Below are positions 3,835-55,596 of a DNA stretch of 64,000 nt, piece after piece. A program made the position numbers and the translations under genes. Within the stretch, counting starts at the first letter, position 1, and every line of letters begins with the position of its first letter. Below the pieces are notes generated by a model. The model did no database searches. It saw only the letters and a program-made list of their open reading frames with translations, and had not been told where the DNA came from. This stretch comes from a virus, in the IMG/VR virus record IMGVR_UViG_3300010413_000096, positions 1-64,000 of that record. One strand, given 5' to 3'.

Positions 3835-3844
3835 AATTATAGGT
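3835..3844 (-). promoter_or_regulatory. Putative phage late promoter motif (ACCTATAATT)
   Basis: The minus strand reads ACCTATAATT, 65 bases before the sheath ATG, in the only sizeable gap of this region. It matches the RCCTATWHT motif found upstream of seven other late genes. No conserved -35 element is visible. Confidence 0.55.
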
Positions 3845-18173: not shown

Positions 18174-18183
18174 AAGTATAGGT
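18174..18183 (-). promoter_or_regulatory. Putative phage late promoter motif (ACCTATACTT)
   Basis: The minus strand reads ACCTATACTT 47 bases before the start at 18126, downstream of the stop of the previous gene. It is identical over ten bases to the copy at 38591-38600. Confidence 0.6.
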
Positions 18184-22563: not shown

Positions 22564-22573
22564 AATAATAGGT
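22564..22573 (-). promoter_or_regulatory. Putative phage late promoter motif (ACCTATTATT)
   Basis: The minus strand reads ACCTATTATTGGGTTG in the gap 22528-22600, with the motif 36 bases before the start at 22527. The extension TTGGGTTG is shared with the copy at 32706-32715. Confidence 0.58.
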
Positions 22574-32705: not shown

Positions 32706-32715
32706 AAATATAGGT
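32706..32715 (-). promoter_or_regulatory. Putative phage late promoter motif (ACCTATATTT)
   Basis: The minus strand reads GACCTATATTTGGGTTG, 48 bases before the start at 32657, in the gap 32658-32739. The TTGGGTTG extension matches the copy at 22564-22573. Confidence 0.6.
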
Positions 32716-32739: not shown

Positions 32740-33399
32740 TCATCGTCCCACAAAGCCACCGCCTACACGCAGTGCTCTGGAGGGCACCGGCGCGGCTGCA
32801 TCTGCTTGTTCCGAATACGGTTGTGGTAGGCCCTGGGACGGTTCTTCACCGACTAACTTACTGACACCTTTGCCGAGTTGACCTCCAAGCCAACCGGTCG
32901 CACCGGGCAACGAGTACTCCGGGGTAAAGAGTGACGCGGCGGTTCCTAGAATGCCCATGGGCGGGAACCAACCCAAACCCTCACCGATGGCCCGACCAAC
33001 CGCTTGTCCCCGTGTTTCGCCAGGACGGGGTTCTTCGGTGATACCTTTATATACACCGTAAGCAGGGAAGCCGAACAGAAAGCCTTTGGCACTGACGTCA
33101 CCCGCAAGACGACCGAAGCCTTTGGTCTTCTCCCACGCGCTGGGGCCGTGTAGCATCGTTCGCCAATGCTCACGCGTAGGTTTCAACGACCCTACCTCTT
33201 TGACAAGTTGGACTGGATGAAGAATACGTTCCGGTTCACCGATAAGCGTACGCAACAGGCTGTGCTCGCCAGCGCCTTCTGCAAGCGGTTTGACGCCACG
33301 ACCACGCGATAAACGTCGCAGTATCCAGTCCCAGGCCTTCGCTTCTTTCGTGAAGCCTAGTGTCTGCAACGCTTGCGCTTGTCCGTGTTCGTAGAACAT
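32740..33399 (-). CDS. Tagged hypothetical protein after RNAP beta' subunit
   Basis: This 219-residue protein starts with the tag itself: MFYEHGQAQALQTLGFTKEA. The body mixes basic helices (ILRRLSRGRGVKPLAEGAGE) with Gly-rich hydrophobic parts (GFLFGFPAYGVYKGITEE, WFPPMGILGTAASLF, GGQLGKGVSKLVG). Its start shares an A with the stop of the RNA polymerase beta' gene (TGATG), so the two are co-expressed. The function is unknown; the tag suggests virion incorporation. Confidence 0.65.
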   Translation of the reverse strand: MFYEHGQAQALQTLGFTKEAKAWDWILRRLSRGRGVKPLAEGAGEHSLLRTLIGEPERILHPVQLVKEVGSLKPTREHWRTMLHGPSAWEKTKGFGRLAGDVSAKGFLFGFPAYGVYKGITEEPRPGETRGQAVGRAIGEGLGWFPPMGILGTAASLFTPEYSLPGATGWLGGQLGKGVSKLVGEEPSQGLPQPYSEQADAAAPVPSRALRVGGGFVGR

Positions 33400-35168
33400 C
33401 AGTAGCGTCCTTTGGGTCCGAGTCCGAACTCTTCGCCAAAGACGAACGCGGGAACAGGGTGTGTGCCGTGGATATCAGCCATTTCTCCGAAAGCTGCGCC
33501 TTCCAGAATTACGTTCTTCAGGTTCCGGTGACCTAGTCTAGCTAGAAAATCTGGATGCAACAATGGTGTTCGACTTATCGGTTTCATCACCGGTTCGAAC
33601 GTGGGGGCGTCCGGCGTAACCGGGACGCGTGTCAAGCCGCTCTGTTGGAAGTCTCGCGCCATCGCGGGTGTCACTTGAACACCTGCGGTGTGATGCAAAA
33701 CAGAGTTCCCGAGACGTTGGCCAATCGCTTCTTGCACTGGAACCTCTTTCGCCTTCTTGGCGAGCTGGGCTCTGAAGCGATTATAGTCGACGATGTCACC
33801 TTTCATCACCCCGAGGTTGGCATCGTCACGGTCCAGCATACGGACATAGTTCAGGTCCGTTTTTGCAAGAATCTCGAAGTGGCGTTTATCGATGTCGATG
33901 CCGGTACGCTGATAGATGCCATGCAGTGCGTCGGCGAGATACTTCCGTCCTTCGCCGAGGCCTTTGTACTTCACGACCTCATCGGGTTTGGGGATACCAT
34001 CCGAGAGGGCATCACCCGCGTTCACGCGCTTTCCTCTGTCTACGATGACCTCTAAGTTGGGTGGCACGTAGTGTTGCTTTTCGTCGATGTGGACGTAGTG
34101 GCCGCCCTGGGGTGCACGTTTCACGGCGGTGACGGTGCCGCGCTGGGACGAAAGTGTTGCCTTGTTGAAGAAGCTCTGTGGTATCTCGGTTATCTGCTTG
34201 AACCCACTGAGCCCGCGCAACACGTTCTTCTGCTTTTCCGCAGTGCGTGTGGCGTGCTTGGCGCTCAGGGCCATCTGGGTCAGCGGTTCGCCCATCGCGT
34301 GTGCTGCAATCATACCGACGTTGTGACCGAGACGCGGAGACGCTCCTTTGGTGTCTAGCCCGTAGCACTTCTGGCAGACGCCATCGGGTGCTTCACACGT
34401 CATGGGTGACCGTACGCGGACGCTGCCGCTGCGCGGTTTGTTACGCGCGGTGATGAGGTCGCCGTTGTCTGCACGAAAGCGGTCGATGATGTTCGGGTCA
34501 TCGGCACCCATCATGAGGCCGTTCTTGGTCCCGCAGTCGGGCATCGTGATTATCTGGTCGCTCATGTTGTTGACCAGAATCTTGCTCATCTCGCCTGGAG
34601 CAGCAACAGAGGTGTACGCTTCGACGGCGTTGCGTCTTGCTTCACCCATCGCTATCCAGTTGTCTGCGGGCTTGAGCCCTTCCGCGTAGCTCTTGCTGAT
34701 GAGCCAGGGAATGGTCTCTTCCTGGTCGTTGACGACAGCGGCGGGCGTGGTCACAGACCGCATAAGCTGTGCAGGTTTTCCTCGAGCCCCACTCATCGCC
34801 ATGGGCGTCATCTGTCCTGGGTGCTGTTTCGTCACCTCCAACATTTGCTGCTGCGTTTTTTGGATGAGGTCGATGCGCGCGTTAGGGTCCTTGAGTTGTT
34901 TGACGCGACGTAGTGCTGGTTCGAGGATGGCATCACGCCGTTTGTAGTCGGGTTCGATGTCGTCCAGACCGACGGTGATACCCGCGTCCGTGGTGACCGC
35001 GTCCCCGACTTTCTTCAACGCACCGACAGTTCGAACGTAGGCGTGCGGGTCTTTACGCGCCAGGTCTACCATCAGCGTGTTGAGTTGCTTCTTCGAGGTT
35101 GGACCCGTGATTTGGTGCGACGCTGGGAGGACCTCGTTGAGCAGAAGCTGTCCGACAGTTTGCGCCAC
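33399..35168 (-). CDS. RNA polymerase beta' subunit, C-terminal part
   Basis: This 589-residue protein corresponds to the region of bacterial beta' downstream of the catalytic Asp motif. It has MSGARGKPAQLMRSV (the conserved SGARG element), the second zinc site with all four cysteines (DCGT ... CEAPDGVCQKCYG), and GMIAAHAMGEPLTQMALSA, the form taken here by the trigger-loop/bridge region (bacterial GIIAAQSIGEPGTQLTM). The end has GQRLGNSVLHHTAG and HPDFLARLGHRNLKNVILEG, matching the beta' tail region. It starts with GTG at 35168 after GGAG. A small inverted repeat covers this ribosome site and start. The N-terminal half of beta' is fused to beta 3.4 kb upstream. Together they would form a phage RNA polymerase core without alpha or omega genes in this window. 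Confidence 0.88.
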   Translation of the reverse strand: MAQTVGQLLLNEVLPASHQITGPTSKKQLNTLMVDLARKDPHAYVRTVGALKKVGDAVTTDAGITVGLDDIEPDYKRRDAILEPALRRVKQLKDPNARIDLIQKTQQQMLEVTKQHPGQMTPMAMSGARGKPAQLMRSVTTPAAVVNDQEETIPWLISKSYAEGLKPADNWIAMGEARRNAVEAYTSVAAPGEMSKILVNNMSDQIITMPDCGTKNGLMMGADDPNIIDRFRADNGDLITARNKPRSGSVRVRSPMTCEAPDGVCQKCYGLDTKGASPRLGHNVGMIAAHAMGEPLTQMALSAKHATRTAEKQKNVLRGLSGFKQITEIPQSFFNKATLSSQRGTVTAVKRAPQGGHYVHIDEKQHYVPPNLEVIVDRGKRVNAGDALSDGIPKPDEVVKYKGLGEGRKYLADALHGIYQRTGIDIDKRHFEILAKTDLNYVRMLDRDDANLGVMKGDIVDYNRFRAQLAKKAKEVPVQEAIGQRLGNSVLHHTAGVQVTPAMARDFQQSGLTRVPVTPDAPTFEPVMKPISRTPLLHPDFLARLGHRNLKNVILEGAAFGEMADIHGTHPVPAFVFGEEFGLGPKGRY

Positions 35169-36163: not shown

Positions 36164-36426
36164 GATGTCTCTCCTTGAAGAAGTCCGAGCTGCCACAAGG
36201 CCAGCTTCATTCCGGCTGAATAATAGGCGGTTTTCGTTTTTTTCGGTAGGCCCTGAAGGATTTTGTCCCACTCTTTTGACGACACCCCTTTGGGTGGCGG
36301 TGGCTCAGCTTGTTTGACGTGCTCGGGCAGGTCTTTGCCCTTGGGCGTGTGCGCTTCCCACTTCTTGGCCATCTGCGGGTGGGTGGCGTACATCCAGCGT
36401 CGTTGTGCATCGCTCTTGAATGGCAT
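36160..36426 (-). CDS. Small basic phage protein with a C-terminal tag
   Basis: The protein has 88 residues from ATG 36426. The N-terminus MPFKSDAQRRWMYATHPQMA and AHTPKGKDLPEHV belong to a short element common in many phages. The last 25 residues, TAYYSAGMKLALWQLGLLQG, are a version of the late-protein tag placed at the C-terminus. A 16-bp tandem duplication covers the start: the outer ATG at 36442, which couples to the upstream stop (TAATG) and sits by the GAGGGGAAG ribosome site, is now out of frame, and the in-frame ATG lies 16 bases further on. Expression may therefore be weakened. Function is unknown. Confidence 0.62.
   Translation of the reverse strand: MPFKSDAQRRWMYATHPQMAKKWEAHTPKGKDLPEHVKQAEPPPPKGVSSKEWDKILQGLPKKTKTAYYSAGMKLALWQLGLLQGETS
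36219..36228 (-). promoter_or_regulatory. Putative phage late promoter motif (GCCTATTATT)
   Basis: The minus strand reads GCCTATTATT 55 bases before the holin-like start at 36163. Unlike the other copies it lies within the coding part of the preceding gene (Ala-Tyr-Tyr-Ser). Confidence 0.45.
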
Positions 36427-38590: not shown

Positions 38591-38600
38591 AAGTATAGGT
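38591..38600 (-). promoter_or_regulatory. Putative phage late promoter motif (ACCTATACTT)
   Basis: The minus strand reads AACCTATACTTGG in the 53-base gap after the RNA polymerase gene, 31 bases before the start at 38559. The ten-base core is identical to 18174-18183. Confidence 0.62.
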
Positions 38601-38612
38601 TATGGGAGCGTT

Positions 38613-41600
38613 TTACCCAATGCGGATTGTGTCGTTCAAGTCGACTTCCCCGCGCCTATACGCCTGCAAGGCTTCGTTCTTGCTCTTGAAACTTCGCGTT
38701 TTTCCACCCGATGCTGCGCTCGCGGTGTAGACGCCAAGCACCGCTTCGTGTTGTGGAAAAACCATCAAGTCCGACTTCGTCTTGTCGCCGAACAGTTGGT
38801 TGGAGAGTGTCATGGATTTGACGTCTTGAACAGCCCCGTCACTGACAGGAACGTGAACCTGCACGGTGTCACCGTCGTAGTCCATGCCCATACCTTCTTC
38901 CATGAAGGGATTCACTCGAATCGTCTTGCCGGGCACAGGTACCGGGTACGCGCCGACCATGCTGAAACGGTGCAAGGTGGGTGCGCGGTTGATGACTACC
39001 GGACGGTTGCGCGATTCGGTGAGGAGCGCTTCGCGAGCCTGGGGGTGTTTGTTCGCTATCATGTCCTTCGCGTCCAACGCGCGGTAGCCCCCTTGCACCA
39101 GGCGTCGCATGAGGTGGGGCTCGTAGGTCTTCCACATCATGTCTTCAGGCAGTCCCACCTCGTCCATGTTGAGATTGAGGTCAGGCGCTACCGTGCCACG
39201 TCCAGTGAGGTCTTGCGGTCGCTTGAGCACCTTGCCGTGAAAGAAACCACGTTTGGGACTTCCTTGACCAGCGATGGTGGTGATGAATCCCTTGGCACCG
39301 CGTCCTTTGAGCTGAGGGCTCACCGCGTCTCCCAAGCCGAATACCGCCTTGGTCGCGTCATAGAGATGCAGACGCGCTCGACCCACTTCGTCTTCCGGGA
39401 GCATTCGTTTGGCTTCGTTGAGCGTGTCGTTGGCCAGCATCGCGTCGCGGTAGAGGTAGTTTGCGTCAGAGATGAGAAGGTCTCGTTTCCCTCGAGAGGG
39501 CAGAATAGGCCGCACAACAGGAGGCACCACCGGGAGTTTTGAGAGCACGAAGGCCTTGTCCGGCGTGAGGCCTTGGCGTTCCAGACTGTTGAGTGCCTTG
39601 AGTTGCTTCACCGTGTCGTCCAACGAGGTACCCGTGGCTTTGGCTGCACGGGCTTCAAGAAAGGCGCGATGTTCTCTGAGGTCGAGGTCACGCAAGCGTT
39701 TTTGAATCCCTGACCCGCCTTCACGTTGCACGGCTGTACGGAACTGCGCTTTGGTCATTCCCAGAATTCGGCGCACAGGGTCTTCGAACGTGGGGTTGAC
39801 GATGGGTTCGTTCAGCGTGACGTGTGCCCAACGGTTACCGCTGGTGCCGCCTGTAACGACAGGGTCGAAGAGTCCACCCTTCTCTGGTGCGAGGTCCTTT
39901 TCACGTACCATCGTAGGCTTCTTCAACTCGCCCGCAGACATCTTCGTGATGTCGTTGTCGGTCATTGGACCGAGGAAGAGCTGTTCGTTGCTCTTGTCGA
40001 CCTTGATGCCTGCGCCACCCAGCATGTCGACGAACTTGTCGTAGGCGAACGCGCGCCGCATCGGGGGCGTAGGCTGTCCAAGCTGGTAGGCACGCCACCA
40101 CTCGTCGTTGCGTGAACTCTTCAGCGTGGCCGCTTCGCGCAGCGCGTTCCGTGCGTTGTGCGCCAGGAGCCCGTTGATTTCCATACGGCCCAACGACTTT
40201 GCGCCCTCAGCGCCGCCCTTGGCGGGTTGCAAGTTCACGTCGTAGTCGCCCACGCCACGCGCGGAGTAGTTGGTCTCAGTCGATTTGAACAGCTTGTAGA
40301 TGTACTGCGGACCGGTCATCACGCCTTTGCCGTCGGGTCCTTTCACCTCTTTGCCGGTCACCGGATTGAAGAGCACCTCTTTGTCGGTGAGCCCATTATC
40401 CTTGAGCAGTTGTTTGGCCCAGGCCACGTTGTTCCGACCAGACATCGAGGGAATAGCGATGGGCTTTCCTGTTTTCTTCGCCACTTTCGCTACGGCCGTC
40501 TCGATGATTTGCGCAGGGTTTACGCGGGAAACCACGCCAGCCGAGGTCATCAGCAAGTCCAGTGGTTGTCCCTCCGGGTTTCGGACCATCTGGTCGTCAG
40601 GCACAATCTTGGAGATGACGCCCTTGTTGCCGTAGCGTCCGGCTACTTTGTCTCCAACAGCCGCTGACTCGCGCGTTTTCACCGTCACCAGCACGCGGCT
40701 GGCAGTGACAACAACATCCACGACCTCACCCGCATTGCGGTGGTCCCAAACAACCGTCATCTCGCGGTAGGGCGTGGCCAGAGTTTTGTGCAGACGCCCC
40801 AACATCTGTTGGTCGGGAGTCGGAGCTGTTTTGCGCAGCGCTAGTACCAACGGGTCGCCGGGTTGCACCGTTGTGCCCGCCTTGGCGACCCCGCGTTCGT
40901 CCAGGTTGCCGTACTGCTGGCTGGTCCAGCGAGACCCGAACTGCGCTTGGTGCTTTCGCTTGTCGAGCACCACATCGTTGTCCAGCGGCAGCGACTCTTT
41001 ATACATATGCTCGCTGGTGAGTTTCTGCGCACCCGTCTCAGAGACCACGACCGCATCGTTGGAGTTCATGCCGTAGTAGGCCATGTAGCCCACGTTGAGG
41101 TTGCGCCCCAAAGCGAGCTTGCCGTTGCGGGTGTAGTTGGAGTCGGCCAACTGCTGGTTGGCTTCTACGCGGTCGCCTTTCTTCACCGTGACGTTGTTGT
41201 GCAAGTACGTCTTGGACGACAGTGGGTAGTTGTCGTCGTAGGGAATCTTGATGAGTGGTGTAGCACCGAGCTTCTCGCCATCGAGTTCGTCACCTTCGTA
41301 CAGCGTCACGTGCTCTTTCGGAGCCATGCGCGGGAAGGGCCACGTCTCTTCTTCGGAAGCGCTTTTGCGCGACTCGGGTTGCAGGTAGATGTAGTCACGG
41401 TCTACCTTTCGGATGATGCCACTGACAGGTGCCACAGGGACGATGAGGTCCGCCAGCTCTTGTTCAAAAGTGCGACCGGGGTTGTAGGATTCGACCTGAA
41501 CGAGCGGCTCTTCGCGTTCGACGAGAGGCAAGGCCTGCGTCGAGTACTTCCCGCCCATGATGACGCGGTTGCCCTGGAGGCTCTCCGGCATGGGGACGGT

Positions 41601-43070
41601 GTTCGTCGCAGGGCTGAACATGAACGATGGGTGAGGCAGCTCGTAGTCCACTTGGCTGCCCGGCACTGAAACGAGCTGTCCGTTACGAAGCGCTGAGGCG
41701 CCGCTGCGCTTCTTGCCTTCACCGGGAAACGCCACCGTGGCCTGTTCGAGCTTGCGCACGGGTACATCTTCCAGGCGACCGTTCTTCATGTTGCGCATCA
41801 TCGTGTACATGCGCCCTTGGTCATCTCGTTTCGTCCAGAGCGAAGAGCGGAGGTCGATGCCAGCACGGAACGATTCTGGCGTACGTGCGGGGTCGATGAG
41901 TCCGAAGTGCGTGTGGTGCAGGTTGCGTGCCTCGCTAGGCACCGCGCGTTCGGAGCTGATGCCGCCCTCGCCGAGGTTGGTGACGCGCACAGCGCTATCG
42001 ATGATTTCCATCGGGTTGATTTGCGTCGGGATGGAAGCCAATGATGCGTTGGTCACGAAACCCCGCAGCGAGCGCGTGAATGGCGACGCGGGAAGCGCAC
42101 GGTCGAGCGAGGGTTTCTTGCCTCCGGTGCCCAGGCGCATGCGGACCTTCTTGTGCAGGTTGCGGCCCTCAAGCTGAATGCGCTCCTTGATGAAGTCGTC
42201 CACACCGTGGAGCGACTGGAACGCCAGGCTGTCGCGGTCGTCTGTGTCGACACCTTTGCGGTGGACATCGAGGAGCTTCTGCGAAGCCTTGAGCAGCGCC
42301 TGTTGGTTGACGTGCGTGAAGCGCTGTCCCAACGTACGTTCAGTAACGCTGGGGTCGAGCATCGTGTCGCGGTACTTCGCGGTGATTTCACGCGCCATCG
42401 TTTCTGGCTGCGAGGCAGTACGCTGGTACGGCGGCACGAGGCGTTCGTAGAGCTTGGCGACAGCTTGTTCTTCCTTCTTCTTGAAGGCGTCGCGGTTCGT
42501 AGCCACCACCCCCGCGCCCCAGTGCTGCGCCAGTTCTTTGTCGTTCACACCCATGCGCTTGAGCACGGGGTAGAGCGGGATGTTCGTCGAACCGTACTGA
42601 AGAAACATGTGGCCCTTCGCGGGGTCCATGTTGATGCGGAAGTTTTCCCCTTTGCCGAGGTTAAACGCAGCCTCCAGTTCTTCGTTGCCACGCACACGGG
42701 TGTAGACGCCGGGTCGTACCCGTCGCTGATGCGCAACGCTGTACTCGTTGCCATCGACGATGAAGGTATGGCGCTGTGTGAAGAAGGGAAGCTGGGCCAG
42801 CGTCTGGTCCTTCTTGCGTTCGATTACTTTGCCTCCCTCGTCCTTGAGCACGAGGTCGCCGCGCAGCGGTTCTTGCAGCGTGCGCCCTTGTAGGATGGCG
42901 TCTTTTTGTTGTCGCGAGGAGAAATCGCGAGGGTCAACACGGACGTTTTCAACCTCCAGGAGGTGCGCCTTGGTCTGAAGAGGGAATACCCCCTGTACGC
43001 CCTCGATGGCCTTCTGGCGAATCTGTTCGCGACGGGTAGCTGCGTCGACAAGTACTGGAGTCAGCTTCAT
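38613..43070 (-). CDS. RNA polymerase beta fused to beta' N-terminal part
   Basis: This 1485-residue protein contains bacterial-type beta and then the first half of beta'. In beta: GRNLNVGYMAYYGMNSNDAV at about residue 660, GDKVAGRYGNKGVISKI at about 805, and the C-terminal LGRMEINGLLAHNARNALRE at about 960. The beta' part begins with GELKKPTMVREKDL, has LPVVPPVVRPILPSRGKRDL at about 1190, and NRPVVINRAPTLHRFSMVGA followed by the catalytic MDYDGDTVQVHVP at about 1395, with all three Asp kept. The N-terminal zinc site of beta' is absent between GGLFDPVVTGG and the next conserved block. The protein ends shortly after the active site; the remainder of beta' is a separate gene at 33399-35168. The starting ATG follows GTGAGG. 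A late promoter-like motif lies 22 bases upstream. Confidence 0.9.
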   Translation of the reverse strand: MKLTPVLVDAATRREQIRQKAIEGVQGVFPLQTKAHLLEVENVRVDPRDFSSRQQKDAILQGRTLQEPLRGDLVLKDEGGKVIERKKDQTLAQLPFFTQRHTFIVDGNEYSVAHQRRVRPGVYTRVRGNEELEAAFNLGKGENFRINMDPAKGHMFLQYGSTNIPLYPVLKRMGVNDKELAQHWGAGVVATNRDAFKKKEEQAVAKLYERLVPPYQRTASQPETMAREITAKYRDTMLDPSVTERTLGQRFTHVNQQALLKASQKLLDVHRKGVDTDDRDSLAFQSLHGVDDFIKERIQLEGRNLHKKVRMRLGTGGKKPSLDRALPASPFTRSLRGFVTNASLASIPTQINPMEIIDSAVRVTNLGEGGISSERAVPSEARNLHHTHFGLIDPARTPESFRAGIDLRSSLWTKRDDQGRMYTMMRNMKNGRLEDVPVRKLEQATVAFPGEGKKRSGASALRNGQLVSVPGSQVDYELPHPSFMFSPATNTVPMPESLQGNRVIMGGKYSTQALPLVEREEPLVQVESYNPGRTFEQELADLIVPVAPVSGIIRKVDRDYIYLQPESRKSASEEETWPFPRMAPKEHVTLYEGDELDGEKLGATPLIKIPYDDNYPLSSKTYLHNNVTVKKGDRVEANQQLADSNYTRNGKLALGRNLNVGYMAYYGMNSNDAVVVSETGAQKLTSEHMYKESLPLDNDVVLDKRKHQAQFGSRWTSQQYGNLDERGVAKAGTTVQPGDPLVLALRKTAPTPDQQMLGRLHKTLATPYREMTVVWDHRNAGEVVDVVVTASRVLVTVKTRESAAVGDKVAGRYGNKGVISKIVPDDQMVRNPEGQPLDLLMTSAGVVSRVNPAQIIETAVAKVAKKTGKPIAIPSMSGRNNVAWAKQLLKDNGLTDKEVLFNPVTGKEVKGPDGKGVMTGPQYIYKLFKSTETNYSARGVGDYDVNLQPAKGGAEGAKSLGRMEINGLLAHNARNALREAATLKSSRNDEWWRAYQLGQPTPPMRRAFAYDKFVDMLGGAGIKVDKSNEQLFLGPMTDNDITKMSAGELKKPTMVREKDLAPEKGGLFDPVVTGGTSGNRWAHVTLNEPIVNPTFEDPVRRILGMTKAQFRTAVQREGGSGIQKRLRDLDLREHRAFLEARAAKATGTSLDDTVKQLKALNSLERQGLTPDKAFVLSKLPVVPPVVRPILPSRGKRDLLISDANYLYRDAMLANDTLNEAKRMLPEDEVGRARLHLYDATKAVFGLGDAVSPQLKGRGAKGFITTIAGQGSPKRGFFHGKVLKRPQDLTGRGTVAPDLNLNMDEVGLPEDMMWKTYEPHLMRRLVQGGYRALDAKDMIANKHPQAREALLTESRNRPVVINRAPTLHRFSMVGAYPVPVPGKTIRVNPFMEEGMGMDYDGDTVQVHVPVSDGAVQDVKSMTLSNQLFGDKTKSDLMVFPQHEAVLGVYTASAASGGKTRSFKSKNEALQAYRRGEVDLNDTIRIG

Positions 43071-43092: not shown

Positions 43093-43102
43093 TAGTATAG
43101 GC
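43093..43102 (-). promoter_or_regulatory. Putative phage late promoter motif (GCCTATACTA)
   Basis: The minus strand reads CGCCTATACTAGCG, 22 bases before the RNA polymerase ATG at 43070. It could allow self-amplifying expression of the polymerase. Confidence 0.55.
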
Positions 43103-44716: not shown

Positions 44717-46429
44717 TTACCCCTGCCCTTGCGCTTGGCGTTTGCCTTGGTAGGCCGCCTGGCTTTGGTACTCCTCGAGTCGCTGGATGACGACAGCGTA
44801 CATGACGGCGTCTTCCACCTGAAGCGAATGGAGTTGGCTCTTTCGCATGCCGGGGTCGAGGGAGAGGAGTTGTTGTGCGATGCCGTCCGCCTGCGCGAGC
44901 ACTTGCTGTTGGTCGTACTGCATGCCTTGACCCAGCGAGGCTTGCGATTGCGCTTGCTGCGCGAGAGACTGCTGGAGCTTCTGAATCTTGAGTTGCACCT
45001 CCTGCTGGAAGCGCACCTCGTCGAGCTGCTCCTGCATACGGCGGTTGCGCTCTTTCTTGAGGTCGAAGTCGTTCAGCTCCGCGATGGTGGTGTTGGAGAT
45101 GAGCTGGCTGGTCTGGTTGAGCTGCATGATGAGCTGCTTCTGTTGCACGTCGTCGATGAGCTTGAACTCGGTCAGCTCGACGTCGACGCTGCCCCAACCC
45201 AGAATCTTGGTGCTGCGGTCAGTAATCCACTGGAGCAGTTCATTTAGCTCGGACGTGTAGGTGAGAAGCTGGTTTTCCAGCATGCGCAGCGTAATGGCCG
45301 AACCGGTGAACGAGAGACCACCGTAGATGAATTCGCGGGGGATACCCATCGCGGCGATGATGTTGTCCTCAGCCTCTTTGACTTCACCGAGCGTGAGCAG
45401 GGCACGTCCGTCGCCGCCGATTTGTGTCGAGTCCACGGGAACAGGTGAGTGCATGATGGTGAGCGGGTCTTTGCGGTGCTCGCGAATGCCCTGCTTCACC
45501 TCTTCGAACATGCGGGCGATAGAGATGGTCTGAATCGGGTCCGCGTTGGCCGAGGCTTGTTTCGGAAAGAGAATGCGGAAGGGAACCAGGTGGTCCAGCG
45601 CGATGGCCTCGTTCGCTTTCCGAAGCACAGCCGCGTAGAAGAACATCTTGATGGCAGAGGTCAGCGGAGGGAATCCCCACTGTTGGTCGATACCGGCGGG
45701 TGGCGCGACCTTCATGTGGTAGATGTAGTTCGGTGCGAACTTGAACATCTTGTTGTCGCGCACCGCTTTGAGAAACTCGAGCGGCATCGTGTTGAGCAAC
45801 AGCTTGTTGCCTTGCCGGATGCGATTCTTGAGGTCTGGCGGGACCGAGTAGTAGTACGTCGACTCTCCCGAAATCGGGTTGTGGTCGATGTCCATCTGTT
45901 TGGGGTCCCAGCGGATGATGTTGATGCGGTTCGGGTCGGTGAGGCGCCGGTCGATGACCTTGCCCGCCACGACACGTTTGCACTTCTTGCAGGTGAACTC
46001 GAACTTGAGCTTCTTGAATTTGAAGCGGTAGTTGATGTGTTGGATGTTGGTCAGTTTCCCACACTGGGGACACTTCAAGAAGCGCGCGAAGGGTTGGTAG
46101 ATGGAGATGAAGGCATTGCCGTAAATCCAACGGTCGCGACCGCAGAGGACGAGGATGTCCTTGACCTTGAGGGTCTTCTCGAGCAAGTTCTCGACCTTTG
46201 CTTCCAGCCCCTTGTTGGTCGTGGTGTACGAGATGTCGGTGATGGGATACTCAGAGAACTTCTTCAGGGCTGCGAAGATTTGGGCGGAGTTGTAGTAGAG
46301 GTACTCCATCCAGGTGAACAGGTCGCGCAGACGTCGCGGTACGAACCCGGTCAAGAAGTCGAACATCGGGTTCGGATGCGAGGCGTTGCCGCGATACAGA
46401 GACTCGAGGTCTGCTATCGAAAGGTCCAT
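44717..46429 (-). CDS. Portal protein with inserted zinc ribbon
   Basis: ATG 46429 follows GAGGAATCTCA and gives 570 residues. The order of features fits a portal: an N-terminal helical region (MEYLYYNSAQIFAALKKFSE), a beta wing, GFPPLTSAIKMFFYAAVLRK, the long stem helices (LVPFRILFPKQASANADPIQ), the crown region near IIAAMGIPREFIYGGLSFTG and ITLRMLENQLLTYTSELNEL, and a Gln-rich coiled-coil tail (QQEVQLKIQKLQQSLAQQAQ). Residues 120-150 add four cysteines (CPQC...CKKC), a probable zinc ribbon in the wing, not usual for portals. The portal is the ring through which DNA is packaged and to which the tail joins. It is the first gene of the minus-strand block, with a promoter-like motif 36 bases upstream. 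Confidence 0.75.
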   Translation of the reverse strand: MDLSIADLESLYRGNASHPNPMFDFLTGFVPRRLRDLFTWMEYLYYNSAQIFAALKKFSEYPITDISYTTTNKGLEAKVENLLEKTLKVKDILVLCGRDRWIYGNAFISIYQPFARFLKCPQCGKLTNIQHINYRFKFKKLKFEFTCKKCKRVVAGKVIDRRLTDPNRINIIRWDPKQMDIDHNPISGESTYYYSVPPDLKNRIRQGNKLLLNTMPLEFLKAVRDNKMFKFAPNYIYHMKVAPPAGIDQQWGFPPLTSAIKMFFYAAVLRKANEAIALDHLVPFRILFPKQASANADPIQTISIARMFEEVKQGIREHRKDPLTIMHSPVPVDSTQIGGDGRALLTLGEVKEAEDNIIAAMGIPREFIYGGLSFTGSAITLRMLENQLLTYTSELNELLQWITDRSTKILGWGSVDVELTEFKLIDDVQQKQLIMQLNQTSQLISNTTIAELNDFDLKKERNRRMQEQLDEVRFQQEVQLKIQKLQQSLAQQAQSQASLGQGMQYDQQQVLAQADGIAQQLLSLDPGMRKSQLHSLQVEDAVMYAVVIQRLEEYQSQAAYQGKRQAQGQG

Positions 46430-46465
46430 TGAGATTCCTCTACCTACGCGAAACTTGTACAAAAG

Positions 46466-46475
46466 GAGAATAGGT
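46466..46475 (-). promoter_or_regulatory. Putative phage late promoter motif (ACCTATTCTC)
   Basis: The minus strand reads GACCTATTCTCC in the divergent gap, 36 bases before the portal start. On the other strand the same bases include the AAGGAG ribosome site of the plus-strand gene at 46479. Confidence 0.45.
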
Positions 46476-46478
46476 CAC

Positions 46479-46916
46479 GTGTCGGAGGATTACAAGCGGG
46501 CAGTCTGCAATTTCTGCCCATCCCAGCCCCAGTGCGAGGAGTACCGGGGCAAGATGTGGTGTGGGGAGTGCGAGATAGCGCTCGTCTGCACCATGACCGA
46601 AGACGTAGGGGTCACGGACTGCCACGTCGCCAAAAAGTACTGGGAAGAATCTTTACCGCGTAAATGCTTGCTCGCAGAGCAAGCGTTGAGCAGCTTCGTG
46701 CGTGCCAGTGCATCATCCCACGGAGCACGCGAAGGCGCGGATGGATTCGTACGTGATAGCCACAGCAAAATCTTCTGTCCCAGATGTCTGCACCCTACGT
46801 TCATCGCAGAAACAGGTCACACCTGGGAACCCGCCTTCGGTGGTGGCGGACGGCAGTCCACGCTAAAAGCAACTTGTTGTATTTGTGGACTTGACGTGGA
46901 AGTAGCACTGTCGTAG
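46479..46916 (+). CDS. Cys-rich zinc-binding protein
   Basis: I choose GTG 46479 because AAAAGGAGAA lies 8 bases upstream; an in-frame ATG at 46314 would run into the portal gene. The protein has 145 residues. It has several cysteine pairs: CNFCPSQPQCEEY, WCGECEIALVC, KIFCPRCLHP and ATCCICGLD, enough for two or three zinc sites. No catalytic motif was seen. It opens the plus-strand operon that continues with the SNF2-type helicase, so a nucleic-acid-related or regulatory role is likely. Confidence 0.68.
   Translation: MSEDYKRAVCNFCPSQPQCEEYRGKMWCGECEIALVCTMTEDVGVTDCHVAKKYWEESLPRKCLLAEQALSSFVRASASSHGAREGADGFVRDSHSKIFCPRCLHPTFIAETGHTWEPAFGGGGRQSTLKATCCICGLDVEVALS
46652..46664. repeat. Palindrome TTTAC-N3-GTAAA, copy 5
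   Basis: TTTACCGCGTAAA, an exact match, lies in the Cys-rich gene and encodes Leu-Pro-Arg-Lys, the same residues as copy 2. Confidence 0.6.
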
Positions 46917-52951: not shown

Positions 52952-53589
52952 TTCTCACGGGACCTGAAATCCTTCGCCAACGGGCCGAAGGGCGCATCGC
53001 TATTGAGCCCTTCGACCCGAGGCTGATAAACCCCAACAGCTACAACCTGCGGTTGGCAGACACCCTACGGGTTTATCTGCCCCGAGGCGAGACCGAACTG
53101 AATGCCTGGATTCCGCACACGCAGTTCCCTGCGGCGAAGTTGGATTGTCGTGCCGACAATCCGACCTGGGCGTTCAAGATTCCGGAAGGAGGAATGACGC
53201 TTTACCCAGGTAAACTTTACCTGGGAGCGACCGTAGAGCGCACCGCATCGGACCACTTCGTACCGATGCTCGAAGGGCGTAGTTCGTTGGCACGCCTCGG
53301 CATTTCTGTGCACCAAACCGGTGGGTTCGGTGACATGGGCTTTGCCGGAAACTGGACGCTCGAGATTACTTGCGTAGAGCCTGTGGTCATCTACGCAGGT
53401 ATAGAGGTGTGTCAGGTGCAGTTTTGGACTGCGCAAGGAGCGCAGATGCTTTATGGTCGTCTAAAGCACAAACCCAGCAAGTACTATGAGCAAGTAGAAC
53501 CCACACCAAGCAAACTATTCACAGAGACAGGAGACACCGATGAACGAGACCGAGCTGACGGTCAAGAAGACCGAAGCGCCTCCGACTGA
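52948..53589 (+). CDS. dcd: dCTP deaminase (Dcd family)
   Basis: The protein has 213 residues. The opening MILTGPEILRQRAEGRIAI, NPNSYNLRLADTLRVYL and the active-site block EGRSSLARLGISVHQTGGFG with NWTLEI match dCTP deaminases of the dUTPase superfamily. The enzyme turns dCTP into dUTP, supplying a dTTP precursor or dUTP itself. The GFGDMGFAG loop replaces the usual TA..D.G..G, so fine activity is uncertain. The last 25 residues are an acidic tail that overlaps the parB-like start by 50 bases. A 21-bp palindrome lies in the coding sequence. Confidence 0.83.
   Translation: MILTGPEILRQRAEGRIAIEPFDPRLINPNSYNLRLADTLRVYLPRGETELNAWIPHTQFPAAKLDCRADNPTWAFKIPEGGMTLYPGKLYLGATVERTASDHFVPMLEGRSSLARLGISVHQTGGFGDMGFAGNWTLEITCVEPVVIYAGIEVCQVQFWTAQGAQMLYGRLKHKPSKYYEQVEPTPSKLFTETGDTDERDRADGQEDRSASD
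53205..53225. repeat. 21-bp palindrome upstream of the parB-like gene
   Basis: CCCAGGTAAA-C-TTTACCTGGG is a perfect palindrome. With the TTTAC at 53201 it forms three half-sites (TTTACC, GGTAAA, TTTACC) of the dispersed element. It lies within dcd, 315 bases before the parB-like ATG. Confidence 0.65.
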
Positions 53590-54673
53590 CGGAGCGGGTG
53601 GCAGCGTCGCCCCCGCGACCACGTCGGAGACGAAGAAGGCAGAACCGAAGAAGGCGGAAGCCAAGCCGGATTCCAAGAACGGAACCAAGGCCGCCGCCAA
53701 GCCCGCGCCGAAGCCGAAGAAGCCCAAGGCGAAGGCCAAGCCCGACGACGAGAACGCGGAGGTGACCTATCTGGCCCTCAGCGAAATCATCGTCGAGAAG
53801 GGCCGGAACCCGCGTCAGTACTACGACCGCGAGGCGCTGAAGAAGCTGTCCATCAGCCTCAAGCACATGGGCATGCTTCAGCCCATGGTGGTGCGCACCA
53901 AGCCGGACGACAAGAAGTACTACCTCGTCGCGGGCGAGCGGCGTTACCGCGCGGCCAAGCTCATCAAGATGAAGACGGTTCCGTGCGTCATCCGTGAGCT
54001 GATGTCGGACGCGCAGGTCGCCTACGCCCAGCACGCCGAGAACGCGCACCGCGAAGACCTCAACCCCATCGAGTACGCGCAGAGCATCGCGAACTTCATC
54101 GGGCAAGAGGTCGAGATGACCAACAAGAAGACCGGCCAGAGCCAGGTTGTCACGGTCAACGCCAAGATTGCGTCGGAGGTCTACAGCCTCTCGCAAGGCG
54201 CGGTGAGCCAGTACCTCGCGCTGCTCAAGCTCCCCCAGCCCATCCAGGAAGCTGTTCGCGATGGGAAGGTGAGCTTCGCCCAGGCGCGCATCATCTGCGG
54301 TGCCAAGGAGCACGACGACCAGATGGCTCTCTTCAAGGAGGTCATGTCGGGCGAAGCCAAGCGTGCGTCTGACGTGAAAGAAGCCGCCGAGAAGAAGCGC
54401 GCCAAACGGAGCGCCAAGGGCGAGGGCAAGAAAAAGCGGGGGCGTCCGGCGCAGACGGACGACGACATGCCCAGCGTTCGGCAGAACCTGGACACGGCGC
54501 TGGAGCGGCTGCGTACGGTCAAAATCGCGTCGCGCACCAAACCGGAGCTGCGCGAGAGCCTGGCCGTGAGCTACGAGCGCCATGAGCGCGCCAAGAGCGA
54601 CGAGAAGAAGCAGTACTACAAGGGGTTCATCGCAGCCCTGGAGTGGACTGCGGGCTTCCGGGACAAGCTCTAG
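53540..54673 (+). CDS. ParB-like DNA-binding protein
   Basis: The protein has 377 residues. Residues 1-75 are a Lys/Ala/Pro linker (AAAKPAPKPKKPKAKAKPDD). Residues 76-145 are the ParB/Srx domain, with NPRQYYDREALKKLSISLKH and the CTP-binding AGERRYRAAKL (about 131-141). EDLNPIEYAQSIANFIGQEV follows, then a helix-turn-helix near residue 215 (LSQGAVSQYLALLKLP). The C-terminal 130 residues are basic and helical. ParB proteins bind a palindromic site, slide on DNA as CTP clamps and segregate or organise DNA. No ParA is seen in the window. The stop shares CTAG with the convergent sigma gene. Confidence 0.85.
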   Translation: MNETELTVKKTEAPPTDGAGGSVAPATTSETKKAEPKKAEAKPDSKNGTKAAAKPAPKPKKPKAKAKPDDENAEVTYLALSEIIVEKGRNPRQYYDREALKKLSISLKHMGMLQPMVVRTKPDDKKYYLVAGERRYRAAKLIKMKTVPCVIRELMSDAQVAYAQHAENAHREDLNPIEYAQSIANFIGQEVEMTNKKTGQSQVVTVNAKIASEVYSLSQGAVSQYLALLKLPQPIQEAVRDGKVSFAQARIICGAKEHDDQMALFKEVMSGEAKRASDVKEAAEKKRAKRSAKGEGKKKRGRPAQTDDDMPSVRQNLDTALERLRTVKIASRTKPELRESLAVSYERHERAKSDEKKQYYKGFIAALEWTAGFRDKL

Positions 54674-55545
54674 TTCCAGTACACGTCGTTTGCGCTGGTG
54701 ATGCGTCGCTGGCGCAACCTGCACCGCAACTCTGTCAACGCATCTTCCTTGATTTGCCGGACACGCTCCGGACAGACACCGAGCTTCTCGGCTATCTCCC
54801 GGAGCGTCTTTCGGTCTTCACGCAGACCGTAGTACGCGATGACGACGTACGCGTGACGGTCTTTCAGTGCGTGGAGAAGGTCCTGCAAGAGACGCCGTGC
54901 GTGTCGTTCTGCGTAGTGACCTTCGGTGTCGCTCTCTTCGTTGATGCAGTCGTTGACCAGTTGATGCGTCGAGGAGTGAGGCGGCATAGACATCGCCTCT
55001 TCGTAGGAGATGTAGGTGAACCCAGCGTTCTCCCCCGCCTGACGGGCTCGGTGATGTTCCTTCTGTTTGTAGGGAGGGATGTGAACTGGAGAGGCATCGT
55101 AGAGCGTTGTGCGAATCGCTTCGGTTATCCACCACGCGGCATAGGTTAGGAAACGCGTGGTGTACCTTTGCGCGTCCGTGTGCCGCAAAGCGCGATTGCA
55201 CTCTTGGCAGCGCTGATGCTTCGGTCGAGCGACATAGTTGTTCCTGCCGCATCGAGGACACCGAATCATCCAAGGGCGGTAACGGTCGACGGCGACCATG
55301 AGGCCCACGTTCCCTGCTGCGATGAGATTGTGCAGGAACTCGGTGTCTCCGCGATAGTACTGACGCGCGGTTTTGATAACGAATCGAAGCCCGCCCTCGA
55401 CGAGAAGTCGACGAGCTTCTGGGTCTCCTTGTTCATGGTAGCGTTCGAAGAGCGCACGCTCTTCGCTCGCGTCCGCAGGCATCCTGGCACGACTTACTTC
55501 TACAAAGTAGCGTGTGTGCGACCTGTCATCGGCATACACGTTCAT
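54670..55545 (-). CDS. Sigma-70 family factor with zinc ribbon inside region 2
   Basis: I choose ATG 55545, which follows GGAGGAAAA, giving 291 residues. Region 2 is clear: RRLLVEGGLRFVIKTARQYY, NLIAAGNVGLMVAVDRYRP, then TTRFLTYAAWWITEAIRTTL, as in sigma-70. Between them, at residues 96-116, is an insert with four cysteines (CPRCGR ... CQECNR), i.e. a zinc ribbon placed where region 2.3 contacts the -10 DNA. Region 4 with its helix-turn-helix is YYGLREDRKTLREIAEKLG followed by CPERVRQIKEDALTELR. The factor probably directs the phage RNA polymerase to the phage's own late promoters (inference). It has a good host-type promoter 18-46 bases upstream and is the only minus-strand gene in the early arm. 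Confidence 0.85.
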   Translation of the reverse strand: MNVYADDRSHTRYFVEVSRARMPADASEERALFERYHEQGDPEARRLLVEGGLRFVIKTARQYYRGDTEFLHNLIAAGNVGLMVAVDRYRPWMIRCPRCGRNNYVARPKHQRCQECNRALRHTDAQRYTTRFLTYAAWWITEAIRTTLYDASPVHIPPYKQKEHHRARQAGENAGFTYISYEEAMSMPPHSSTHQLVNDCINEESDTEGHYAERHARRLLQDLLHALKDRHAYVVIAYYGLREDRKTLREIAEKLGVCPERVRQIKEDALTELRCRLRQRRITSANDVYWN

Positions 55546-55567: not shown

Positions 55568-55596
55568 AGTATATCAATTAAGGTAAACTTTGGCAA
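55568..55596 (-). promoter_or_regulatory. Host-type sigma-70 promoter for the sigma gene
   Basis: On the minus strand TTGCCA (55591-55596) and TATACT (55568-55573) are separated by exactly 17 bases, in an AT-rich patch. Transcription would begin about 15 bases before the sigma gene ATG. Confidence 0.75.

Follow-up and report, generated by a model that had tools for sequence, protein, structure and literature searches.

A phage sigma factor with a putative zinc-ribbon in its specificity loop, and relatives with ribbons at a second point of the same predicted activator-binding face

The window analysed here, a stretch of 64,000 nucleotides (positions 1 to 64,000 of the IMG/VR virus record IMGVR_UViG_3300010413_000096, a 69,278-bp virus contig), carries on its minus strand the gene for a sigma-70-family factor, the genes for a phage RNA polymerase core and a series of candidate late promoters. 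The sigma gene with its insert and promoter, and the polymerase genes, are located as follows.

54670..55545, minus strand: sigma-70-family factor of 291 aa, with region 1.2, region 2 (split by an insert), a short disordered linker instead of region 3, and region 4
55162..55272, minus strand: predicted zinc-ribbon insert, residues 92-128 (WMIRCPRCGRNNYVARPKHQRCQECNRALRHTDAQRYT, given through residue 129), with Cys96, 99, 113 and 116
55568..55596, minus strand: putative host-type promoter of the sigma gene, TTGCCA-17-TATACT with a TG extended -10 (consensus match)
38613..43070, minus strand: RNA polymerase beta-beta' fusion of 1485 aa with no cysteine, without the beta' N-terminal zinc-binding domain, clamp helices kept
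33399..35168, minus strand: beta' C-terminal subunit of the phage polymerase, with Cys212, 258, 265 and 268 kept

The sigma ORF runs on the minus strand from an ATG at 55543-55545 to a stop at 54670-54672. A ParB-like gene (53540-54673, plus strand) is convergent with it and overlaps its stop, and this pair is kept in relatives. In L034 (G008, 95.7 kb), a contig of the polymerase clade whose sigma factors carry the loop ribbon, ParB directly adjoins the next gene with no sigma gene between, and none turned up in the rest of the contig.

The 291-aa product is a member of the sigma-70 family: it contains regions 2 and 4 and scores 67.4 bits with the NCBIfam sigma70-ECF superfamily model (TIGR02937, cut-off 42.9), while its role in directing promoter use is putative. 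Pfam Sigma70_r4 (PF04545) matches with 41 bits against a cut-off of 24.1 (E 1.3e-10), and Sigma70_r2 (PF04542) reaches 22.6 bits, just below its cut-off of 24, with a match confined to residues 49-91 because the insert splits region 2. The best NCBIfam models are RpoS and RpoH, both scoring far under their equivalog cut-offs; with 102 bits against 379 for the RpoS equivalog model, the protein does not fall into group 1/2 (RpoD/RpoS). The AlphaFold2 model has a mean pLDDT of 85.3 and a poorly defined linker at about residues 170-206, where region 3 would be, and in a Foldseek search the top-ranking matches include complexes of sigma32 and of sigmaS. The first-pass annotation had described regions 2 and 4 as plain; both are indeed recognisable by Pfam and NCBIfam, but the protein is otherwise not plain, since by alignment the region-3 helix-turn-helix is absent.

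The insert, 35 residues long and of the pattern C-x2-C-x13-C-x2-C, interrupts the 'specificity loop' that joins regions 2.2 and 2.3, with CPRC at residues 96-99 and CQEC at 113-116, as had been read from the sequence at the outset. By alignment it falls between Y421 and R422 of E. coli sigma70 and at P136^E137 of E. coli sigmaS, so that the DPE motif of the loop is split. The earlier placement of the insert in the -10 recognition region likewise stands, since the specificity loop encloses the flipped -11A (PMC6917491, PMC6411747). AlphaFold2 predicts the insert with confidence (block mean pLDDT 93-97, strands at 92-95 and 102-105 with block pLDDT 96-97), and the two conserved C-x2-C knuckles together with this compact predicted beta fold identify it as a probable zinc-ribbon; matches of the sigma to PF13695 and PF10122 remain below the Pfam cut-off. 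The ribbon is basic, with a net charge of about +7 as compared to +1 for the rest of the sigma. A zinc-ribbon is a small domain that usually binds zinc, and the insert presumably does so as well. A 42-residue linker containing both C-x2-C pairs is found in the window, L001/L040, L002/L041, L042, L043, L044 and L025/L045, as compared to 7 residues in other homologues, and all four cysteines are retained in the seven loop-ribbon homologues at identities down to 45%. As the linker and both cysteine pairs recur in seven homologues, the insert is neither chance nor an assembly error. Among the papers searched, none was found that describes zinc-ribbons inside sigma factors. Elsewhere in the window, the portal protein (44717-46462, minus strand) also has a C-x2-C...C-x2-C insert (residues 131-161, CPQCGKLTN...CKKC), present in the L001 homologue as well, and a Cys-rich ORF with four C-x2-C pairs (46299-46913, plus strand) adjoins the portal gene.

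The phage polymerase presumed in the first-pass annotation is indeed encoded in the window, as a beta-beta' fusion and a separate beta' C-terminus; this arrangement and the full-length homology of the fusion place it with the Arash-type polymerases. Relatives found among cultured phages are Salmonella phage Arash and the Vibrio phages D69, D148 and D181, with 35-36% identity over the full fusion. The aligned phage cores are missing precisely the zinc-binding domain of beta' (cysteines C70, C72, C85 and C88 in E. coli), and their beta' clamp toe is partly trimmed, with the clamp helices, on which sigma2 docks, retained. Several beta-beta' loci (L134, L127, L141 and others, G015, G017, G019, G021, G046) have frames of 1600-2842 aa in which the homology is interrupted without stops; these interruptions are probably inteins.

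A scan of IMG/VR yielded 80 sigma loci, and a repeat that started from the sister clade yielded 74; ribbons were tallied as C-x2-C pairs against fixed landmarks. Four classes emerged. The seven sequences of the window clade have the loop ribbon; ten rows have a single ribbon at the junction of regions 1.2 and 2.1; 30 rows have two ribbons at this junction, most with an extra C-x2-C where region 3 would be; and the sigmas of Arash, D69, G005, G007, L294, L304, L308 and others are ribbonless. In about 40 sister sigmas, ribbons occur only at the 1.2/2.1 junction, although some of these sigmas have another C-x2-C beyond region 2, and the four cysteines are invariant in alignment A4. A view of the sister sigmas as ribbonless had been limited to the 2.2/2.3 loop and was overturned by the ribbons at this junction. 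The region-3 helix-turn-helix is absent from all ribbon-bearing sigmas examined and also from some ribbonless ones. In a sigma tree from which the ribbon columns were excluded, sigmas with the loop ribbon, with one ribbon and with two ribbons each form a single clade (SH-aLRT of 96, 100 and 100, in this order), and the polymerase tree agrees with it, with ribbonless phages basal. At least two changes of ribbon state would be needed across these sequence trees; alternatively, a single gain may have been followed by relocation between the sites, the likeness of the loop and 1.2/2.1 ribbons having been judged by eye.

The exact deletion of the zinc-binding domain in the aligned cores, and the lack of any cysteine in the 1485-aa window subunit, could mean that the ribbon stands in for this domain and restores a contact with upstream DNA. 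Such a replacement is improbable, as the cores of Arash, D69, G005 and G037 also lack the domain while the sigmas seen there are ribbonless; the domain loss is thus older than the ribbons. Clades with 1.2/2.1 ribbons possess the same polymerase type as the window phage.

The motif RCCTATWHT has 10 matches in the window against 0.76 expected, all on the minus (late) strand; two lie inside genes (14784, 39502) and eight just upstream of genes, in line with the eight motif-bearing fragments noted earlier. These eight candidate late promoter -10 elements are the following.

46467..46475, minus strand: ACCTATTCT, upstream of the portal gene, TTG 17 bp upstream
43094..43102, minus strand: GCCTATACT, upstream of the beta-beta' gene
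38592..38600, minus strand: ACCTATACT, TTG 17 bp upstream
36220..36228, minus strand: GCCTATTAT, motif match
32707..32715, minus strand: ACCTATATT, TTG 17 bp upstream
22565..22573, minus strand: ACCTATTAT, TTG 17 bp upstream
18175..18183, minus strand: ACCTATACT, motif match
3836..3844, minus strand: ACCTATAAT, TTG 17 bp upstream

Judged by their sequence, the RCCTATWHT sites are late promoters of ordinary sigma-70 layout, with a -35 TTG, a 17-bp spacer and a -10 TATAnT. Of 44 sites in loop-clade phages, 22 have an upstream TTG at a spacing of exactly 17 bp from TATAnT, with 0-2 at any other offset scanned (binomial about 1e-32, the sites from related phages not being independent). The corresponding TTG occurs at 6/27 sites of two-ribbon phages, 3/21 of ribbonless phages and 0/29 of one-ribbon phages. 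Motif searches upstream of late genes, each started solely from the k-mers enriched in that set of phages and using gene calls by a simple longest-ORF rule, returned TnncCTATAnTT for the loop clade and nnccTATAnTT for the two-ribbon phages; with the one-ribbon clade they did not settle on the -10, and k-mer counts and site lists serve as the basis there. A de novo search with the early-strand genes of the loop clade gave no clear motif. On the minus strand of Arash (L238-L247), the early-strand motif TGGTATAAGTA occurs as GGTATAAG upstream of 22 genes against 0.11 expected, and several relatives have a related motif, GGTAYAAG, on their early strand.

It had been proposed at first that the insert alters -10 recognition and dedicates the factor to a non-standard promoter code. 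Its position in the loop enclosing -11A (PMC6917491, PMC6411747), the strong enrichment of the motif and the CC at -14/-13, unlike the host TG, speak for such a code. However, the -35 and the 17-bp spacing are canonical, the -13 C is also found in the ribbonless Arash late motif GCTAAAAT, and the (C)CTATAnT -10 is common to all four classes, including ribbonless relatives and those with ribbons at the other site. The ribbon hence does not set the -10, the claim of a non-standard promoter is not supported by this sigma-70-type layout, and an altered code is now very doubtful. Loop-clade-specific features are the commoner -35 TTG and a pyrimidine bias at -17, the single base tracking the loop ribbon (36/39 sites vs 44/77 in others; Fisher 9e-5, 0.0017 after 19 columns, for a bias found post hoc in partly orthologous sites). 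The site pattern had fixed the -13 C and the hexamer beforehand, and only positions outside it are independent findings.

The host-type promoter predicted upstream of the sigma gene has a similar counterpart, TTTGATATACT, at the same place in L001 and L002, and the beta-beta' gene bears a putative late promoter (43094). This arrangement is consistent with a cascade in which the host polymerase transcribes the sigma gene and the sigma then directs the phage polymerase to the late genes. Instead, the sigma might hijack the host core, given the sigma-70-like promoter layout and the same docking helices on that core. Sigma and phage core sort into the same clades in the two trees and the phage core keeps its clamp helices; both observations are also compatible with use of the host core, yet we consider hijacking unlikely. 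In Arash, the two core subunits gp206/gp216 are among the most abundant particle proteins, and the particle holds another sigma-like protein, gp10, while gp196, the homologue of the window sigma, is not listed (PMC10585845). By analogy, the window polymerase may be carried in the particle and this sigma made in the infected cell. Arash gp10 (L037:11892-12596) is sigma region-3-like and is possibly the sigma of the injected polymerase; a second, gp10-like virion sigma was searched for in the window and not found, in a record that may be incomplete.

The interest lies in the broader picture, in which ribbons were gained at two sites on what appears to be one activator-binding face, located here by homology to sigmaS. 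On sigmaS, the loop ribbon maps to P136^E137 and the 1.2/2.1 ribbons to R82^A83, the start of the non-conserved region (NCR). Crl cradles sigmaS 72-93 (1.2/NCR/2.1) and anchors the nearby specificity loop 133-141 via D135 and E137 (PMC6917491). RbpA-SID touches the NCR, 1.2 and 2.3, and R157 of the sigma70 NCR contacts DNA at -16/-17 (PMC7403470). The ribbons would thus sit at the two places where trans-acting sigma activators are known to anchor. That two or more insertion events placed zinc-ribbons in different sigma loops meeting on the Crl/RbpA/NCR face, as a convergent built-in activator whose loop version also favours the -17 pyrimidine, is a tentative proposal with somewhat less than an even chance.

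Taken together, the best explanation, which we hold to be about evenly balanced between right and wrong, is that the phage sigma works with its own core at late promoters and that the ribbon is a cis-acting sigma-remodelling module. The sigma would direct the phage core to TTG-17 bp-TATAnT with C at -13 and usually at -14, the promoter bases being read by the usual sigma parts, regions 2.3/2.4/3.0 and 4. The ribbon, predicted to lie on the outer face of sigma domain 2, would most likely act in cis like Crl and RbpA in trans and like the sigma70 NCR, keeping the split loop in shape, touching core and/or duplex DNA near -16/-17 with its basic surface and hence easing open-complex formation, and related phages would have acquired their ribbon(s) on the other half of this face. 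A tether to the clamp toe, which is touched by Crl and the NCR, is unlikely as the toe is partly trimmed in the phage core. Counting against any such role, Arash, D69 and G005-type phages function without a ribbon. Zinc-ribbons often bind proteins, and C-x2-C pairs occur also in the portal and other window proteins; hence the ribbon could be a docking site for another phage protein (a regulator, an anti-sigma or a replication protein) or a metal/redox switch, but no conserved partner gene was identified in this analysis and this alternative seems rather unlikely.

Sigma factors are among the best-studied transcription factors. Should the ribbons prove to be built-in activators, these related phages would amount to a natural experiment with the same core polymerase and -10 and differing ribbons, ranging from none, to one or two at the NCR position, to one in the specificity loop, and the role of the outer face of sigma domain 2 in promoter melting would become testable.

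Compared with known systems, the window sigma aligns end to end over regions 1.2, 2 and 4 with the bacterial group 2/3 sigmas RpoS and RpoH, from which it differs in the 35-residue specificity-loop ribbon and the missing region-3 helix-turn-helix. Arash gp196 and the Vibrio phage D69 sigma are its homologues and belong with the same polymerase family (beta-beta' 36/35% full length); unlike the window sigma they have no ribbon, keep region 3 and go with the late motif GCTAAAATA, and packaging of the polymerase in the particle has been demonstrated for Arash alone (PMC10585845). Crl, RbpA and the sigma70 NCR act at the NCR/1.2 surface and at the specificity loop or region 2.3 (PMC6917491, PMC7403470), a likeness to the ribbon that is positional only: Crl and RbpA are proteins in their own right and the NCR has no ribbon fold, whereas the window ribbon is an insert inside sigma, and none of the Pfam, PHROGs and NCBIfam hits of the window sigma is to a Crl or RbpA family. 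In phiKZ/AR9-type phages, a multisubunit polymerase is likewise phage-encoded. The AR9 holoenzyme uses gp226, which has no sequence similarity to sigma (PMC7598289), and polymerases of this type are split differently, whereas the window phage combines a fused beta and beta' with a recognisable sigma.
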